The notes under the pieces: generated by a model
What the model saw: only the letters and a program-made list of their open reading frames with translations
Told to the model about the DNA's origin: nothing
Database searches by the model: none
Part shown: positions 9,621 through 18,860 of the stretch, piece after piece
Numbering within the stretch: the stretch's first letter is position 1
Layout: every line of letters starts with the position of its first letter
IMG/VR virus record: IMGVR_UViG_3300020469_000301
Location: 1 to 21,620 of that record
Origin: a virus
Reading direction: 5' to 3' (one strand)
Length of the DNA stretch: 21,620 nucleotides
Program-made: the position numbers and the translations under genes

Positions 9621-12434
9621 ATGGGTAGTTACTCTAGAGAAAGATATGCAACTGAATCAGCAAGTTTTCCTAAAAGCGCAAACTCTGCACCAGCATCATA
9701 TTCATATGCAACTTTTGCTGATTTACCTACTTCTGGTTCTACACCTGGAAATACTGCTTTTGTTGTCGCGACAAATAGATTATATATTTGGAGTGGTGTG
9801 GGATGGTATTTAATTGCTACTGTTACAAACGCATCTCCAACTGCAATTACTGGAGTTAGTGATACATATACACTTGCAACAAATGGAACCGCCACTACAG
9901 TTACTGCTGTATCAACTGACCCAGAAGGATTTGCACTTAGTTGGTCATATTCAGTTTCATCTGGAGCATTAAATGGAACAACTGTTAGTCAAGCAGATAA
10001 TGTTTTTACTATTACACCACATGCAAGCAATCCCACAACCTTTAGTATTACTTTCAATGTTACTGATGGTTTGAATGGGAGTGTTAGTAAAGTAAGCGCA
10101 TTTACGCTGGCATTTACTGTAACAAATTCAAGATACACTGCATTATCAGTTAAGGCGACTGCAACTGGTTCTAATCAAACCTTTGACGATGCTTCTGCTT
10201 CAAATCATACGATTACTGTTGCTGGTAACTCAATAACATCAACATTTAGCCCATATCGTCATGGTGGGTATTCTGCGTATTTTACTACTAGTGGTTCTAC
10301 TTCAGGCAGTGGTGGAACAGGTCAATATATTCAAAGCGATTTGACTTCTGAATTGACACTAGATACCAATGATTTTACAATTAGTTGTTGGGTATATGGT
10401 ATTAGTAAATTACGCAACTATCCTAGAATATTACAAATTGGCCCACAAAATACTCCGTGGGGCGCGAGTCAATTATCAATACTATACAAACACGATAGCG
10501 ATAACGATTCTATAACTTTAGCAATGCAAGGTATTGGAGTCAATTCATTGCTAATTGCAAGCGGCCCAATAAATGATAATCAATGGTATCATGTAGCCCT
10601 CACTAGATCAGGAAGTACATTTACATTGTACATTGACGGGGTATCTGTTGGAACATATACAAGTACAGGAAGTGCAACAGGAGCAGGTAACAAAGCAATA
10701 CTAATTGGTAGTGCTAGTTCCGGTGACAGTGACTTTCATGGGTATATTTCTGATGTGCGTGTTATTAATGGCACATCTATTTACACAGGTAATTTTACAC
10801 CGCCAACTGAACCATCTACCGTTGTCACAAACACAAAATTTTTACTTAGTAACTTACCTTATTTTAAAGATAAATCTGCATCAAATCATGCAATCACTGC
10901 TACTGGTAATGCATCTTTAAGACCAAAATCTTTGTTTGATAATGGTGCATATTCAGAAGCATCTCATGGGGCGTCTGCATATTTTGATGGAACAGGTGAT
11001 TATTTAACTGGCCCAAGTTCTGCAACTATAGGAATTGGTACGGGCGATTTTACAATAGAATGTTGGTTTTATGCAACAGATGGAACAAGCATTGATAGAG
11101 GTATTTGGGAAACTCGCACAGATGGATATCCAAACTGGTCAGAGGGATTATCTCTTACTAGACTAACTGAAACGACATTTAGATTATATGGATCATCTGC
11201 ATTAATAGTGTCTAGTGCAACTACTATTACAAACAATTGGAATCACTTAGCGGTTGTAAGAAATAGTGGAACACTGGAACTCTTTGTTAATGGCGTTTCA
11301 CAAGGCACCGTTTCTAATAGTACAAATATGAACTCTTCTCAACCAATAGCCATTGGCTCTGGTAGGTATACTACCAGTAATAGCACACCAACCCATGCTG
11401 TTAAAGGTTATATTCAAGATTTCAGAGTAGTCAAAGGCACAGCAGTTTACACAAGTAATTTCACACCACCAACTGCACCATTAACAAATTCTCCAACTTA
11501 TCCAGCCATGGCTATAGGTGTAGCAAATTCGGGTGCTAGTGCATATACGTTAAGCGGTGATGTAACTGGTAGTAACGCAACTGTAAATATGGCAGTTGGT
11601 CAAACTGTAAACTTTACTGTAAATGCTTCAGGTCATCCTTTTTATATTAGAGTGTCAGATGGTGGAGCAAATGTCAGTACTCCGGCAGCAACAGGACAAG
11701 GAGCAACAAGCGGTGTAGTTAGTTGGACTCCTAATACTGCTGGTACATATTACTATCAATGCGAAATTCATGCGGGTATGATTGGAACAATTAATGTAAC
11801 TGATGGTGTTAAATTTCTATTAAATCCAGAACCATCTATTTTAGATTTGAGTCAATCAAGTGAAATACAATGTTTTGGTGATGCCGCAACATCTACAACT
11901 CAAGTAAAGTTTGCTGGAACAAAGTCGATTTATCTTGATGGTACTGGCGATTATCTTCAGATCAATAATTACGAAAATTCATGGATAAGTGGATATACAG
12001 GCGATTATACAATAGAATTTTGGTGGTATCCTACAAATGTTTCTACTGGAGCAGCGCAAGAAATATTGACTGCCTCCAATGGGTTTCAATTTTATATTTC
12101 AAACGGGGGTGGTTTATCTTTAGCGGTATCTAGTAATGCCAATAATAGTTTCTTTTGGCATCCACAAGATATACATACAATGGTAATTAATACATGGCAA
12201 CACCTTGCTATTGTTCGCAATGGAAATGTTTATACTATATATGTAGACGGGGTTTCAAAAGCAACTACTACAACAAGTACTCTTATTGAAACTAGTACAA
12301 ATGCTTTTCAATTAGGTGTTTATCAAGGGTCACTATATCCGACTGTAGGATATTTTCAAGACCTTAGAGTAACGAAGGGTCTTGCAAGATATACTTCAGG
12401 ATTTACCCCACCGACAGCGGAATTACAGGGATAA
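9621..12434 (+). CDS. fibre-like structural protein with three LamG domains and a cupredoxin-like domain
   Basis: A 937-residue beta-rich protein. Order: short N-terminus; a WSGVGWYLIATVT module (about 44-70); an Ig/cadherin-like domain (72-166); LamG-type concanavalin-like domain 1 (about 193-395), domain 2 (about 420-620) and domain 3 (about 735-935). Each LamG ends in the same pattern, DVRVINGTSIYTGNFTPPT-like, and carries W-x-H-L/V-A and LYIDG/VNGV strands. Between LamG 2 and 3 lies a cupredoxin-like domain (about 625-726) with His672, Cys714, His717 and Met720, a full type 1 copper ligand set. Such proteins are tail-fibre or virion-surface components that bind glycans. Ribosome binding site AAGG at 9609-9612. 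Confidence 0.88.
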   Translation: MGSYSRERYATESASFPKSANSAPASYSYATFADLPTSGSTPGNTAFVVATNRLYIWSGVGWYLIATVTNASPTAITGVSDTYTLATNGTATTVTAVSTDPEGFALSWSYSVSSGALNGTTVSQADNVFTITPHASNPTTFSITFNVTDGLNGSVSKVSAFTLAFTVTNSRYTALSVKATATGSNQTFDDASASNHTITVAGNSITSTFSPYRHGGYSAYFTTSGSTSGSGGTGQYIQSDLTSELTLDTNDFTISCWVYGISKLRNYPRILQIGPQNTPWGASQLSILYKHDSDNDSITLAMQGIGVNSLLIASGPINDNQWYHVALTRSGSTFTLYIDGVSVGTYTSTGSATGAGNKAILIGSASSGDSDFHGYISDVRVINGTSIYTGNFTPPTEPSTVVTNTKFLLSNLPYFKDKSASNHAITATGNASLRPKSLFDNGAYSEASHGASAYFDGTGDYLTGPSSATIGIGTGDFTIECWFYATDGTSIDRGIWETRTDGYPNWSEGLSLTRLTETTFRLYGSSALIVSSATTITNNWNHLAVVRNSGTLELFVNGVSQGTVSNSTNMNSSQPIAIGSGRYTTSNSTPTHAVKGYIQDFRVVKGTAVYTSNFTPPTAPLTNSPTYPAMAIGVANSGASAYTLSGDVTGSNATVNMAVGQTVNFTVNASGHPFYIRVSDGGANVSTPAATGQGATSGVVSWTPNTAGTYYYQCEIHAGMIGTINVTDGVKFLLNPEPSILDLSQSSEIQCFGDAATSTTQVKFAGTKSIYLDGTGDYLQINNYENSWISGYTGDYTIEFWWYPTNVSTGAAQEILTASNGFQFYISNGGGLSLAVSSNANNSFFWHPQDIHTMVINTWQHLAIVRNGNVYTIYVDGVSKATTTTSTLIETSTNAFQLGVYQGSLYPTVGYFQDLRVTKGLARYTSGFTPPTAELQG

Positions 12435-12437
12435 ATT

Positions 12438-13757
12438 ATGGGTAAGTATTCTGAAACCCGATATGCATACGCACTTCCAACATTTGATCCAGCACCTTTA
12501 TCCGCTTCAGAGGCGGCTGGTCCACAAAAATCTAACATGAGAGTTTACGAAACTCTTGCCGCTTTACCTGCAACTTCTACAGACAAAGGAAATACTGCAT
12601 TTGTTGTAGCAACAAACAATTTATACGTTTGGAACGGTGTTGGTTGGTATCTAGTCGCTGAAGTAACAAATGCTTCACCTTCTTCTATTACTGGTGTAAA
12701 TTCAACATATAGTTTAGCAACTGATGGAACAGCAACTACAATTACTGCCGTTGCTACAGACCCAGAAGGAATGGCTTTAACTTGGAGTTACGCAGTCACA
12801 ACTGGTTCATTAGGGTCAACAGCATCAGTATCTCAGGTAGATAACGTGTTTAATATTATTCCATCTAGTACAGAATCCGATGCTGGAACCTTTACTTTAA
12901 CATTTAGTGTAACAGATGGTGTAAATTCAGCAGTTAGTTATCCATCTGCATTTACATTAGCGTTTGGTCCTCCCCCTTCTAGTTATTTATTTTCAACAGC
13001 GGGAACACATTCTTGGACATGTCCATCTGGACTCACTAGCGTATCAGTAGTGGCTGTTGGTGCTGGCGCAGAAGCAGGATCAGTAGCAGGTGGTGGCGGT
13101 GGTCTTGGTTGGAAAAATAATATATCAGTCACACCCGGCCAATCTTATACGGTAGTTGTTGGTGCTGGTGGTCAAAATAAATCAAATGAACATAGTTACT
13201 TTATAAACACATCAACCGTAATGGGTGAAGGTGGTAATGCCGCAACAGGTGGTGGTTATGTTGGAGATGGTGGTGGAAACGGTGGTGATGGGCAAGGTTC
13301 TGGAACGTATCAGTATTGTGGCGGCGGGGGTGCCGGGGGATATTCTGGAGATGGCGGTGACGGAAAATCTGGTCAAACTGGACAGGCTGGAAATGGTCAA
13401 GGGGGTGGTGCTGGGGGATCAATGGCTAACTCAGGTGGATATACTTGTGGGGGTGGTGGTGTTGGTGTCTATGGTCAAGGATCAAATGGTGTTGGCGGTG
13501 TTGCTAACATACATCCAAATCAACATCCTACGACTACTGGTGCAGGTACAGGTGGTTCTGGTGGTGAAGATGCCACTAGTAGTTATGGTCATACAAATGC
13601 AGGAAATTACGGCGGCGGTGGCGGTGGCGGCGGGTCAGGCGCAGGTGGGGGCAACTCAGGTTCTGGAGCAGTAAGACTTCTTTGGGGTTCTGGTAGATCA
13701 TTTCCTTCTACAAATGTTAGTAATGCTAGTAATGTTGATGCTGAAACAGTAGTATAA
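12438..13757 (+). CDS. glycine-rich tail fibre adhesin-like protein
   Basis: A 439-residue protein. Residues 51-176 repeat the N-terminal module of the previous gene (GNTAFVVATN, VWNGVGWYLVAEVTNASP, then the Ig-like domain). Residues 186-420 form a glycine-rich domain that starts GTHSWTCPSGLTSVSVVAVGAG, continues through many GGGG runs, and ends GAVRLLWGSGRSFPSTN. This is the layout of phage glycine-rich adhesins, where poly-Gly helices form a sandwich and exposed loops bind the receptor (as known for gp38 of some T4-like phages). It is likely the host-range determinant. It follows the LamG gene by three bases with AGGG at 12427-12430. Confidence 0.85.
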   Translation: MGKYSETRYAYALPTFDPAPLSASEAAGPQKSNMRVYETLAALPATSTDKGNTAFVVATNNLYVWNGVGWYLVAEVTNASPSSITGVNSTYSLATDGTATTITAVATDPEGMALTWSYAVTTGSLGSTASVSQVDNVFNIIPSSTESDAGTFTLTFSVTDGVNSAVSYPSAFTLAFGPPPSSYLFSTAGTHSWTCPSGLTSVSVVAVGAGAEAGSVAGGGGGLGWKNNISVTPGQSYTVVVGAGGQNKSNEHSYFINTSTVMGEGGNAATGGGYVGDGGGNGGDGQGSGTYQYCGGGGAGGYSGDGGDGKSGQTGQAGNGQGGGAGGSMANSGGYTCGGGGVGVYGQGSNGVGGVANIHPNQHPTTTGAGTGGSGGEDATSSYGHTNAGNYGGGGGGGGSGAGGGNSGSGAVRLLWGSGRSFPSTNVSNASNVDAETVV

Positions 13758-14350: not shown

Positions 14351-14926
14351 ATGTTTAGAAAATTATTGAGTATTTTATGTATTGTCATGGTATTTGGATT
14401 TACACAAACGCTTTTTGCTCAAACCGTAGTAGAAACTACAACCGACAGTAAAAGTAAAGTTGATTCACAAGGACAAACAATTGTAATATCGCCACCACCT
14501 TCTGCAATTTCTCCTAGTGCGGGGGGAAGTTCTCAAGACCTTTGTACGGTTGGTATTTCTGGTGCTGTTCAGACTCAAATACTTGGCATTTCTACTGGTG
14601 AAACTGTAACAGATCAAAATTGTGAACGACTCAAGATTTCAAAAACACTTTATGATATGGGTATGAAAGTTGCTGCTGTTTCTGTAATGTGTCAAGATAA
14701 AAGAGTATTTGATGCGATGGGTATGGCAGGGACACCTTGTCCATATGAAGGTAAAATTGGTGAAGAAGCGAAAGAAGCATGGAAAACTTGGAGTGGTAAG
14801 AAAAAGATTCCTATAGAGTTCAAACCGGAGACAAAGGCAGATGTTCAAAAAAGGCAATGGGAAACTGGTAGATCAGTTATTGGCGGTGCTTTGTTGTTTG
14901 TACTTCTGTTGGTCGCCGCCAAGTAA
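14351..14926 (+). CDS. exported protein with C-terminal membrane anchor, unknown function
   Basis: A 191-residue protein with a clear signal peptide (MFRKLLSILCIVMVFGF...LFA, cut near residue 23) and a C-terminal hydrophobic segment (about 175-190, SVIGGALLFVLLLVAA), so the middle would be periplasmic. A Pro/Ser-rich linker (48-60) precedes a domain with four cysteines (65, 91, 114, 130), suited to two disulfides, and a SVMCQDKRVFDAM segment. GGAG at 14340-14343 precedes the ATG. The last 86 bases are shared with the next gene in another frame. Function unknown; late expression and export suggest an envelope or lysis-related role. Confidence 0.85.
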   Translation: MFRKLLSILCIVMVFGFTQTLFAQTVVETTTDSKSKVDSQGQTIVISPPPSAISPSAGGSSQDLCTVGISGAVQTQILGISTGETVTDQNCERLKISKTLYDMGMKVAAVSVMCQDKRVFDAMGMAGTPCPYEGKIGEEAKEAWKTWSGKKKIPIEFKPETKADVQKRQWETGRSVIGGALLFVLLLVAAK

Positions 14927-16775
14927 CGCTACAACAGAAAGTATAACAGTTGACAGCGGAGTAACTACCACTATACCAGAAATCGCAGATTTAAGTGACG
15001 GTACAATAACTAATGGTACATGTGTAGGTGGTTCATCTCATTTGAATTTATTAACTAGTAGTAGTGAAGCGTGGAGTGGTTCACCAACTTTGCAATGGGG
15101 TGCATGTTCTGATACGTTTGCAATGACTATGGCAATAAATGAAGTATTATCAGATGCTGGTACAGGCATAAGTTTAGATAAAATTCATTATCGTTGGAAA
15201 TGGATTAATGGTTGTTTCAATATAACAAAAGCAAATGGCGATAAAGTGTGGTGTTCAACAGATATTGAGAATAGACTTGATGAAAATATGAAACCTACTG
15301 GAGAATATGCAGATCAGTTTGATGCTCTTAATATTGTGATAGAAATTACTGATAGTAATGGAACTGTTATAGAAACAAAAACTTACGATTATGATACTTG
15401 GTATCATTGGAGTGAATCAAATTCGCATAGTACAAATGAAACCACAGATGGTGAAGGTGCTGTTTGGCAAATAACTGAAGATCATATAGAACTTTTTAAT
15501 CATATCACTGGTACTGGAACAATATACACACCAAATCAATTAGGAAATATTAGTTTTGTTGCTAATGCACAAGATAATGGACAGTGGGAAGGATACTATG
15601 GTCCTGTTGCAAGAGATGGTGAAATGTGGTTTACATATCGCAATAATCCATGCGATTTAGATACTCTTTACAATCCATCGTGTAGTGGTTACGCTGAAGC
15701 ATATGTGGCACACCTTTATGATCAATCATGTATTGCGGACTCTTTATTTGATATTGGTTGCCCAAATTATGCGACAGCATATCAAGACCAACAATGTAAG
15801 ATTAATCCATTGTATAGTGTTCAATGTCCAAATTATCAAACAGCATATTTCAATCAACAATGTGATCTTGATCCACAATATGATATTGGTTGTCCTAACT
15901 ACTCTGTACTTACTGTCATGGAAGAAATTGTTGTAACTGATCCTGTCGCAGAAATTATTAATCCAAATATAACTATAACCGAAACTATACCAGAAATTAT
16001 TATGCCAGAAATTGTTGTGCCACCAATTGATATAGTTTCTCAGATAGCACCAGTAGAAGAAATTACCACTCAATCTATTGAGACAGAAATCGCAGCAATA
16101 GAGGCAGAAATAAATGAGCAAATCGTTGAAACAACAATTGTTGAACCAGAATCAGGAGAAACCTCTGGAGAAAGAGGAAATTCTGGAAACACCAGTGGAA
16201 ATACCACTACCCAAGAAACCGAAAAACCCCAGCCAGAGAAAAACGACGAACCTAAATCCGAAACTGATGGAGAAAGTGAAGAAACACCCAATGATGAACA
16301 AAGCGAGTCCAAGAACGATGGTGGAAAAGAAAAAGACGTTGGGAAAGATATTGGCTCTAAAGATGGTAATGGAAAGGATAAAGAAGTAGATGAAAGTGAA
16401 AATAATAACGAAGCCGTTGAATCTGAGGAAGATGTTGTTAGACCTCAGAAAAAAGAAGAAAAGGAAGCCCCAACAGAAGCAGAAAAAAAGAATTCTAGGA
16501 AAGAAAAGATAAGAAGATTGATTGCAGATAAAGTAAACAGTCTTACTAAAAAAGTTGAGGAAGCATCAACTTTAGAAGAACAAGTGGCAGTACAAGCGCA
16601 ATTAGCAGCACTAATTGCATTTGTGCCAGATTTTGATTATGGAGATATGGAAGTACCAGATATTTATTTTTATCCACCAGTGCCGACAGTAGATCATGCA
16701 TTTTCAAGATGGTTCGTGAATGACCCGACATTTGGAATAATGGAGGATTTACAATATCCAAGTTTAAGGCAGTAA
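14841..16775 (+). CDS. large exported Cys-repeat protein with charged linker
   Basis: A 644-residue protein with a signal peptide (about 1-30: MFKKGNGK, hydrophobic LLAVLCCLYFCW, then SPPSNA before the likely cut). Residues 31-265 form a domain with several Trp, Cys and Asn residues and an IHYRWKWINGCF segment. Residues 271-354 hold four tandem copies of a repeat of about 22 residues with the pattern C-x5-L/Y-x4-C-x-x-Y-x-x-AY. Residues 355-432 are Ile/Pro/Glu-rich, 433-550 are a low-complexity Glu/Lys/Asn/Gly linker, and 555-644 form a helical then Tyr/Pro-rich C-terminal domain. It starts 86 bases inside the previous gene. It probably spans or sits on the envelope, or is a virion-associated adhesin; function unknown. 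Confidence 0.83.
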   Translation: MFKKGNGKLVDQLLAVLCCLYFCWSPPSNATTESITVDSGVTTTIPEIADLSDGTITNGTCVGGSSHLNLLTSSSEAWSGSPTLQWGACSDTFAMTMAINEVLSDAGTGISLDKIHYRWKWINGCFNITKANGDKVWCSTDIENRLDENMKPTGEYADQFDALNIVIEITDSNGTVIETKTYDYDTWYHWSESNSHSTNETTDGEGAVWQITEDHIELFNHITGTGTIYTPNQLGNISFVANAQDNGQWEGYYGPVARDGEMWFTYRNNPCDLDTLYNPSCSGYAEAYVAHLYDQSCIADSLFDIGCPNYATAYQDQQCKINPLYSVQCPNYQTAYFNQQCDLDPQYDIGCPNYSVLTVMEEIVVTDPVAEIINPNITITETIPEIIMPEIVVPPIDIVSQIAPVEEITTQSIETEIAAIEAEINEQIVETTIVEPESGETSGERGNSGNTSGNTTTQETEKPQPEKNDEPKSETDGESEETPNDEQSESKNDGGKEKDVGKDIGSKDGNGKDKEVDESENNNEAVESEEDVVRPQKKEEKEAPTEAEKKNSRKEKIRRLIADKVNSLTKKVEEASTLEEQVAVQAQLAALIAFVPDFDYGDMEVPDIYFYPPVPTVDHAFSRWFVNDPTFGIMEDLQYPSLRQ

Positions 16776-17111: not shown

Positions 17112-17753
17112 ATGGCAGAGATAGAGTATGGTGGAGTCAAGGCAAGCGGTTCAAAATTGCTTTTGATTATACCATTATTAGGTACAATAGGTGGTGGTCT
17201 TTGGGGTGGATTTGAATTCTACAAAGATTACCAAGATATGAAAGAGCAAATACAAAGTTATGTTGCGCCAGATTTATCAGGATTTGATAAACAAATTGCA
17301 ATACAGCAAGAGCATCAAGTGACTGTTGAGAGACATATGGATTTCGTATCAGAAGAATTAGAATTATTTAAAGGTGAATTTGCTGGGGTTCGTGATCGTA
17401 TTACAGAAAATACGGATTATCTCAGAGATGCAAAGCATGATCTGAAAGATGAAATGGTTCGTATGGAAAAACATCTTGATCGTATTGAAATTGAAGTTAC
17501 CAAAGCAGAAGATGAAATGAGGGCTATTTCAGATAAACTTAATGATGATGTAAGAGCATTAATGGATGAAGGCGAAACTGAACAAGATAGACTCAAGAGC
17601 GATGTTCGTGCAATGATTGACGATGCCAATAATCGTTTTAATGATAAAATATCTGGCCTTGAAGGTTATGTTAAACGAGAATTAAGTTCTCTTGAGGAAA
17701 GACTCAACGCTAAATTAACAAAGGCACTTGATAACCCACTCGCTAATCGGTAG
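17112..17753 (+). CDS. membrane-anchored coiled-coil protein
   Basis: A 213-residue protein with a single hydrophobic segment near the N-terminus (residues 15-34, KLLLIIPLLGTIGGGLWGGF) followed by a long charged coiled coil (about 60-205) with heptad-like Leu, Ile, Met and Val spacing. No catalytic motif is seen. AAGGAA at 17099-17104 precedes the ATG. It closes the late envelope operon, and its last 11 bases overlap a convergent gene on the other strand. A structural or spanin-like role at the inner membrane is possible but not supported by specific residues. Confidence 0.84.
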   Translation: MAEIEYGGVKASGSKLLLIIPLLGTIGGGLWGGFEFYKDYQDMKEQIQSYVAPDLSGFDKQIAIQQEHQVTVERHMDFVSEELELFKGEFAGVRDRITENTDYLRDAKHDLKDEMVRMEKHLDRIEIEVTKAEDEMRAISDKLNDDVRALMDEGETEQDRLKSDVRAMIDDANNRFNDKISGLEGYVKRELSSLEERLNAKLTKALDNPLANR

Positions 17754-18021
17754 AGGCCAGCATACCATTAGGTGGTGCTGGTGGTTTAGGATAGTATGAA
17801 GGTTCAACATGAGTTTTTATTACAGGTGTTCCTTCTGGGACACTTGCAGGTATACAATACGCTGTTGCTTGATCTTTTGCTGACCAGTGACCCCATCTTT
17901 TAGATAAGGCTTCAGCAGTTGAGTTACAATATTCCACTGAATAGAAATATAATTTTTCTTCAACTTCTATTCTATTTTCACCAATTCCGATGAAAAGTAT
18001 GAGTGCAAAAACTTGTATCAT
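17743..18021 (-). CDS. small exported protein, Cys-containing
   Basis: A 92-residue protein starting with a hydrophobic leader (MIQVFALILFIGIG) that can act as a signal peptide, then a soluble region with two cysteines (32 and 56) and an EYCNSTAEALSKRW helix, and a Pro-rich tail (PSYYPKPPAPPNG). Two cysteines in an exported protein suggest a disulfide. It is the last gene of the minus-strand block, shares one base with the preceding stop (TAATG on that strand), and converges with the coiled-coil gene. Function unknown. Confidence 0.75.
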   Translation of the reverse strand: MIQVFALILFIGIGENRIEVEEKLYFYSVEYCNSTAEALSKRWGHWSAKDQATAYCIPASVPEGTPVIKTHVEPSYYPKPPAPPNGMLASTD

Positions 18022-18371
18022 TAATCTAGTACCTCGTATGAAATTCTTATTCCCTTATCACCTAATACTGATGCTGTCAAATCTGTGATATTATTAGGAA
18101 TTTTATTCTGTGATTGAAATTTTCTTGTAGATGCTAATAATTCTGCTTCCAACATTTCTTTATATTTAAAACCACTCTCAAGTTCATAAACCACAGAAAA
18201 CACCCAACTTGGTGTTGTTTTAGATTTTTTACGTTGAGATGGTTCTATTTGATAAATGTCAAATTTTGCCCCCTTTGCCTTACAATTTTTTATAGCATCT
18301 AAAATTGCTGGCATCACTTTTTTTGAAATTAATTCTGCTTTATTTTTAATTGCCTTGCCTTTCCCAAACAT
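18021..18371 (-). CDS. basic hypothetical protein
   Basis: A 116-residue basic protein with a Lys-rich N-terminus (MFGKGKAIKNKAELISKK), a helix with the hydrophobic face AILDAI, and a beta-like middle (WVFSVVYELESGFKYKEM). One cysteine, no signal peptide and no membrane segment. It lies between the two other minus-strand genes: six bases after the stop of the upstream gene and overlapping the next by one base. I do not recognise the family. Confidence 0.75.
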   Translation of the reverse strand: MFGKGKAIKNKAELISKKVMPAILDAIKNCKAKGAKFDIYQIEPSQRKKSKTTPSWVFSVVYELESGFKYKEMLEAELLASTRKFQSQNKIPNNITDLTASVLGDKGIRISYEVLD

Positions 18372-18377
18372 AGAATC

Positions 18378-18860
18378 TTACCACCAACCTTCTATTGATC
18401 CTATAATCCAAACTCCACCAAAAATCATTGACAAAATCCCAAAAGATAGTGCCACCATTATCGCACCATTTATCACCGCATGTTTAAATTCTTCCGCTGC
18501 ATATATGGTATCTTCGCGTTCTTTTTTGATAGCGCGTCTTAACTCCATCATTTCATCCCAGGTATTAGGCCCAAATCTCATATTCAACATGAACATGATT
18601 TCCTTCTGTTGCTCTGCCATTTTTTTCTTGTGAGTCAGTATGGCAAATGCCTCTTCTTCTATTGATCCAGACCCCATAAGTTTAGCATGAAGTGGTGGAT
18701 TTTTTCTCTGTTGTTCTGCCCTGTTTATGTCGTTGAGTGCGCCAAACCATTTTCCCAAAGATTCTGTACAATTCTCTAATTCCTGCCCCGCTTGCACGAT
18801 TTTGGTCAGTCCTTTATATGCAGCAGATGCGGCGGCTATAGCCGTAAGTGGGTCAATCAT
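18378..18860 (-). CDS. conserved marine-phage membrane protein
   Basis: A 160-residue protein beginning MIDPLTAIAAASAAYKGLTKI, a start I recall from marine T4-like phage genomes. The middle is a charged helical region (Lys/Glu/Met-rich, about 55-125), and the C-terminus has a hydrophobic segment (about 130-153, INGAIMVALSFGILSMIFGGVWII) followed by GSIEGWW. This is a tail-anchored layout with the bulk in the cytoplasm. A purine-rich GAAGAGAG stretch lies about ten bases before the start. Function unknown; a C-terminal anchor and phage context leave room for a lysis or membrane-remodelling role. Confidence 0.82.
   Translation of the reverse strand: MIDPLTAIAAASAAYKGLTKIVQAGQELENCTESLGKWFGALNDINRAEQQRKNPPLHAKLMGSGSIEEEAFAILTHKKKMAEQQKEIMFMLNMRFGPNTWDEMMELRRAIKKEREDTIYAAEEFKHAVINGAIMVALSFGILSMIFGGVWIIGSIEGWW

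Follow-up and report, generated by a model that had tools for sequence, protein, structure and literature searches.

Domain organisation of the fibre-like protein

The window, by which we mean the whole stretch of DNA analysed, is the entire IMG/VR record IMGVR_UViG_3300020469_000301 and comprises 21,620 bases. We assign this DNA to a T4-like marine phage, as a fragment of its genome, since the nearest match of its UvsX is Phage C48C1 (Kyanoviridae) and its DnaB-like helicase is nearest to that phage and to cyanophages. The record reads on the plus strand apart from three minus-strand ORFs at 17743-18860. Positions 14841-16775 encode a secreted-looking predicted protein with a run of similar Cys-bearing repeats (CDLDTLYNPSC, CIADSLFDIGC, CKINPLYSVQC), an acidic C-terminal half and no Pfam match above cut-off. 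The features of the fibre-like protein studied here, and its neighbour, are as follows.

9621..12434, + strand: LamG/cupredoxin fibre-like protein, 937 aa (ORF translation, Pfam, PHROG)
9621..10136, + strand: N-terminal region, residues 1-172, 57% identical to the next ORF (sequence comparison)
10314..10769, + strand: first LamG domain, residues 232-383 (best Pfam Laminin_G_3 stretch)
10971..11492, + strand: second LamG-like region, residues 451-624, boundaries approximate (PHROG match)
11508..11804, + strand: cupredoxin domain, residues ~630-728, ~99 residues (Pfam, PHROG, profile, AlphaFold2, Foldseek, VIA-align)
11634..11636, + strand: His672, predicted copper ligand 1, in the H-P-F motif ASGHPFY (sequence, conservation)
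11760..11762, + strand: Cys714, predicted copper ligand 2 (sequence, conservation)
11769..11771, + strand: His717, predicted copper ligand 3 (sequence, conservation)
11778..11780, + strand: Met720, predicted axial ligand (sequence, conservation)
11850..12428, + strand: third LamG-like region, residues 744-936 (PHROG match)
12438..13757, + strand: neighbouring paralogue with the same N-terminus, then a glycine-rich domain (sequence comparison, Pfam)

The N-terminal region of the 937-residue protein is presumed to be its virion-attachment part. Three Laminin_G_3 stretches are recognised in it by Pfam, and the cupredoxin domain follows the second LamG-like region and precedes the third. A preliminary description of this DNA had placed the domain between two LamG domains, as the PHROG matches bear out, and had named H672, C714, H717 and M720 as ligands, the last three within YYYQCEIHAGM; the translation of ORF 9621-12434 has all four at those positions. 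The virion fibre that it named, putative for the window's own phage, agrees with the architecture and with homologues that carry gp9, tail fibre or virion protein annotations.

The protein and the next ORF (12438-13757) are 57% identical over their first ~175 residues and differ downstream, where the latter has a glycine-rich domain and gave no cupredoxin match. We found 100 distinct proteins with this N-terminus, 74 of them complete, and a cupredoxin domain is present in seven of the complete set. The shared N-terminus with a different downstream domain, and the count of 7/74, indicate that in this adhesin-like fibre the cupredoxin is a module that can be swapped. While optional in the window's fibre type, the domain is widespread in cyanophage gp9.

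Sequence and structural evidence for a cupredoxin fold

The domain is a genuine cupredoxin. Single-sequence searches gave weak matches: the window domain scores ~19.4-19.5 bits against Pfam Copper-bind (PF00127), for which the gathering cut-off, a reporting threshold and not a biological trait, is 21.2. The best match in a single-sequence PDB search was plastocyanin, at E 0.0015, and an NCBIfam search of the window protein returned cupredoxin models below threshold only. Across the family, 36 of 48 members have a Copper-bind match at E ≤ 0.01, the best at 1.1e-8, and the homologue L101 passes the cut-off with 26.5. We then have a 48-row profile, A2, which 47 of 52 representatives entered and from which copies with long insertions or without the full ligand set were excluded. 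Against the PDB it matched 169 sequences at E ≤ 10, and all 60 of the matches listed are cupredoxins, including nitrite reductase, plastocyanin, amicyanin, pseudoazurin and rusticyanin. The A2 alignments pair all four ligands with those of plastocyanins 2plt and 1b3i; because ligand-incomplete copies were left out of A2, its invariant columns are not evidence of conservation. Weak Pfam matches of the domain to PPC and Ig_3, below cut-off, were rejected.

The AlphaFold2 model of the domain has a mean pLDDT of 94.4, a pTM of 0.86 and eight strands. Read from sequence and DSSP, the ligand positions are as in cupredoxins: the first His lies just ahead of strand 57-60 (model numbering), the Cys ends strand 91-97, and the second His and the Met lie in the loop before the last strand. 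Foldseek matched the model at E ≤ 0.001 to PDB chains numbering 166, and each of the 50 matches listed has the cupredoxin fold, with rusticyanin first among them (8e-6). In superpositions with VIA-align, the top match was 2dv6_A (Z 11.6, 1.9 Å rmsd over 94 residues). Structure prediction and superposition, which the preliminary description had put forward as a check, thus match the model to cupredoxins, and its cupredoxin-like domain with a full ligand set is supported by profile, predicted structure and conservation alike.

Two other origins of the motif were considered and rejected. The 937-residue protein has four Cys, and when its sequence was shuffled 20,000 times, C..H..M arose at any position in 10 of the shuffles; this result, with the family-level profile, AlphaFold2 and Foldseek matches, argue against a chance motif. 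A plastocyanin proper, or a captured petE, is not consistent with a TIGR02656 score of 21.2 bits against an equivalog cut-off of 87.85. As for the metal itself, a Bacillus cupredoxin-like protein crystallised with zinc (4hcg) is among the Foldseek matches listed, and the site might hold zinc or some other metal instead of copper in the virion. However, His-Cys-His-Met is the copper set and the closest structures are copper proteins, so we regard another metal as highly improbable.

Conservation and coupled loss of the ligands

The ligand residues could not themselves select hits, because the four ligand columns were masked in the search profiles. We found 161 distinct domains and dropped 21 with a gapped ligand column (fragments, or copies truncated by the locus end or by the alignment), leaving 140. 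Among the loci behind this set, L021-L100 are the best 80 of at least 539 confirmed stretches, and one of the two scan patterns that produced them fixes His2 and Met. With the masked-ligand HMM, H-C-H-M is present in 131 of these 140 fully covered domains. Free loss of the ligands among homologues, which the preliminary description had set against its own proposal, was therefore not seen. The other nine comprise one HCHQ, one HCNM and seven domains without Cys (HSAM three times, YSAM, DSTI, ESSA and FAVM), and the second His is absent from all seven. Cys and His2 are thus both kept in 132 domains and both missing from seven, with Cys alone kept in one. A pattern-free tblastn search of isolate and single-phage (SAG) records gave 26 domains, namely 22 HCHM, one FAVM (S-B05) and three partial, so that HCHM holds for 22 of the 23 domains with full coverage. 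At 70% redundancy, HCHM is found in 59 of 65 representatives. The median pairwise identity of these 65 is 0.40 and the residues between the ligands vary freely, while the top seven of 92 columns by conservation include all four ligands (Met, Cys, His1 and His2).

Loop length also varies with the ligands kept, as in the C-x4-H-x2-M of L063, L072, L078 and L125 (isolate S-SKS1), and in L068 the axial Met is replaced by Gln with the other ligands in place. Ligands kept through changes in loop length and axial residue form the pattern expected of a metal site. One-sided breaks are few (HCNM in L084 and C-x2-H-x2-A in L113), and one copy in L062 has the Cys with Tyr in place of both His. In a 71-row tree, in which few branches are resolved, Cys changes five times; in three independent pairs on starred branches, too few for significance, His2 is almost always lost with Cys. 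The cellular domain L138 appears as NCSM in this tree owing to misalignment of its longer, plastocyanin-like loop. Multiple cupredoxin copies per protein or locus were observed in L053, L054, L058 and L084, with ligands intact in some copies and lost in others. A disulphide as the general role of the Cys was rejected: 119 of the 140 domains contain exactly one Cys, and in 7/10 gp9-type phage proteins the ligand Cys is the sole Cys of the protein (L110, L119 and L120 have more).

These data bear on whether the fold is simply reused without metal, as a β-sandwich spacer or adhesin in which the four residues persist through packing or recent ancestry. The seven Cys-less copies retain the surrounding sequence, and the existence of such natural ligand-less copies indicates that the fold can serve without metal; Big_9, Cadherin-like and LamG are other β-sandwich modules that occupy similar places in carrier fibres. 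However, the ligands stand out in conservation at a divergence where the intervening residues vary, and Cys and His2 disappear together. We consider a metal-free scaffold unlikely, and regard selection for metal binding as having kept the ligand site, as one part of the fuller explanation given below. A redox-active copper, in which a one-electron site would sense contact with the host surface or react with oxidants on the virion, appears distinctly unlikely. A complete type 1 ligand set with a variable axial residue is a natural design for electron transfer, but conservation does not extend to the residues of the ligand loop, which therefore shows no evident conserved docking patch, and the carriers scanned showed no electron-transfer partner domain.

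Distribution in phages and cells

The preliminary description had expected copper binding in a virion fibre to be unusual, a view that must be corrected, as marine phages commonly carry the domain. With the window domain as query, 276 of 50,697 phage records match at E ≤ 0.01; a gp9-type copy as query gives 354 matching records of the same 50,697, a set that may overlap with a separate set of 307 records. The matching records are nearly all from phages of Synechococcus or Prochlorococcus, where 'baseplate wedge tail fiber connector' is a frequent annotation, and the best matching PHROGs of the domain have 'unknown function' or tail names. In nine of ten gp9-type phage records the domain ends ≤1 residue before the C-terminus, the exception being L119. 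It also occurs in the autographivirus P-GSP1, in S-TIM5 and in subtilase-like proteins; phage subtilase-family (S8) proteins carrying it were observed in L020 (2342-4348), where it is C-terminal, and in L116. A pelagiphage tail fibre (the Pelagibacter phage copy L124) matched the domain by tblastn and was absent from the masked-profile hits. The S-SCSM1 homologue is annotated '(virion protein)' in its record. The available text of PMC9602691 reports 45 S-SCSM1 virion proteins detected by mass spectrometry, and in the accessible portions of published cyanophage virion proteomes we found no table tying peptides to the S-SCSM1 fibre. Matches of the AlphaFold2 model in BFVD included proteins of giant viruses, namely a 'beta-sandwich protein' of Marseillevirus and of Pithovirus and a Fadolivirus 'Blue type 1 copper protein'.

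In cells, matches at E ≤ 1e-8, seeds included, were obtained for 13 of 196 genomes in the order of one marine Bacteroidetes genome and for 3 of 190 genomes in one alphaproteobacterial class. Both copies in genome G004 resemble phage gp9. Where a stop is in view, the distance from domain end to C-terminus is no more than 10 residues in 10 of 12 distinct cellular copies, and several carrier proteins have a lipobox-like N-terminus, as judged by eye. Loci L101-L105 and L129-L133 encode lipoprotein-like proteins of marine Bacteroidetes with the cupredoxin domain at the end. The domain tree has two groups, both 99*, with phage and cellular copies in each, and on this basis the domain has probably been exchanged across the phage-cell boundary more than once.

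The presence of the same domain on lipoprotein-like proteins of marine bacteria, and its optional status in receptor-type fibres, would fit a copper 'Trojan horse', in which copper on the virion would be presented to copper-acquisition or surface proteins of the host, or be recognised by them. Against this, the domain is widespread in gp9-type connectors, which suits a structural role. We know of no host copper protein that acts as a receptor for these phages, and a type 1 site usually holds copper too tightly for easy delivery. The analogous iron proposal for HxH tail fibres, in the available text of PMC11705849, lends the idea some precedent, and overall we hold it to be very unlikely.

Proposed role of the domain

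The explanation that we favour, and judge reasonably probable as a whole, is a cupredoxin with a type 1 copper site (His672, Cys714, His717 and Met720) that is selected for metal binding and serves in a static role as an extracellular module of a LamG fibre. Judging from sequence and model, the domain is probably a metal-loaded, extracellular type 1 copper module put to static use in adhesive or connector parts. It would be inserted between the LamG domains of a tail-fibre-like adhesin in a T4-like marine phage, as one member of a family common to marine phage tail and baseplate proteins and the surface lipoproteins of marine bacteria. Bound copper would rigidify the small domain and fix the surface loop that carries His717, and the rigidified domain could then help a connector or receptor-binding part. 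A static role fits both settings, since making a small domain and its exposed loop more stable suits an optional fibre module as well as gp9. Alongside the computed fold, topology of ligand positions, ligand conservation, coupled ligand loss and module swapping, we infer that the virion binds copper and that the job of this copper is static, rather than electron transfer.

The recurrence of the domain, with its ligands, in marine phage tail and baseplate proteins suggests that the particles of these phages carry copper. It is plausible, though somewhat short of probable, that marine T4-like phages hold type 1 copper in both baseplate connectors and fibres, with several copper atoms per particle and a function in attachment or infection, and that the domain is traded with surface proteins of marine bacteria. 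The cupredoxin fold is already known, and its place in phage tail proteins appears to be unannotated: in the open-licence papers searched we found no description of copper, cupredoxin or plastocyanin domains in phage tails or virions, and in the accessible portions of cyanophage papers plastocyanin refers to petE or photosynthesis. If copper is truly bound, the particles of many marine phages, a large group, would be copper proteins, with a bearing on phage attachment, particle stability and ocean trace-metal chemistry. Isolated cyanophages would allow a direct test, as the same domain is present in gp9 of phages grown in the laboratory.

Comparison with known systems

The window domain shares its fold, strand order and ligands with cupredoxins (PF00127) such as plastocyanin, amicyanin, rusticyanin and the N-terminal domain of Hyphomicrobium nitrite reductase (2dv6), but is embedded in a phage fibre-like protein and has no known electron partner. 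The first ligand stands in H-P-F, where plastocyanin has H-N, and the C-x2-H-x2-M loop is shorter than the C-x2-H-x4-M of plastocyanin in the A2 alignment; we take the shorter loop to have the spacing of amicyanin. Cyanophage gp9, the 'baseplate wedge tail fiber connector' (phrog_677), has a homologous domain at its C-terminus. Its N-terminus is T4_gp9_10_N (L019, L106), whereas Pfam finds LamG domains but no T4_gp9_10_N match in the window protein.

The phage-encoded plastocyanin PetE (phrog_515) is also a cupredoxin and matches the window domain weakly (E 0.00072); the available sections of PMC3037559 and PMC2984593 report PetE in phages as a photosynthesis gene and not as part of the virion. 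The iron-binding HxH tail fibres (T4 gp37; R22Y) place a metal in a phage fibre (PMC11705849), as the window protein would. They hold iron in an octahedral His site, and both their fold and their ligand set differ from those of the window domain.
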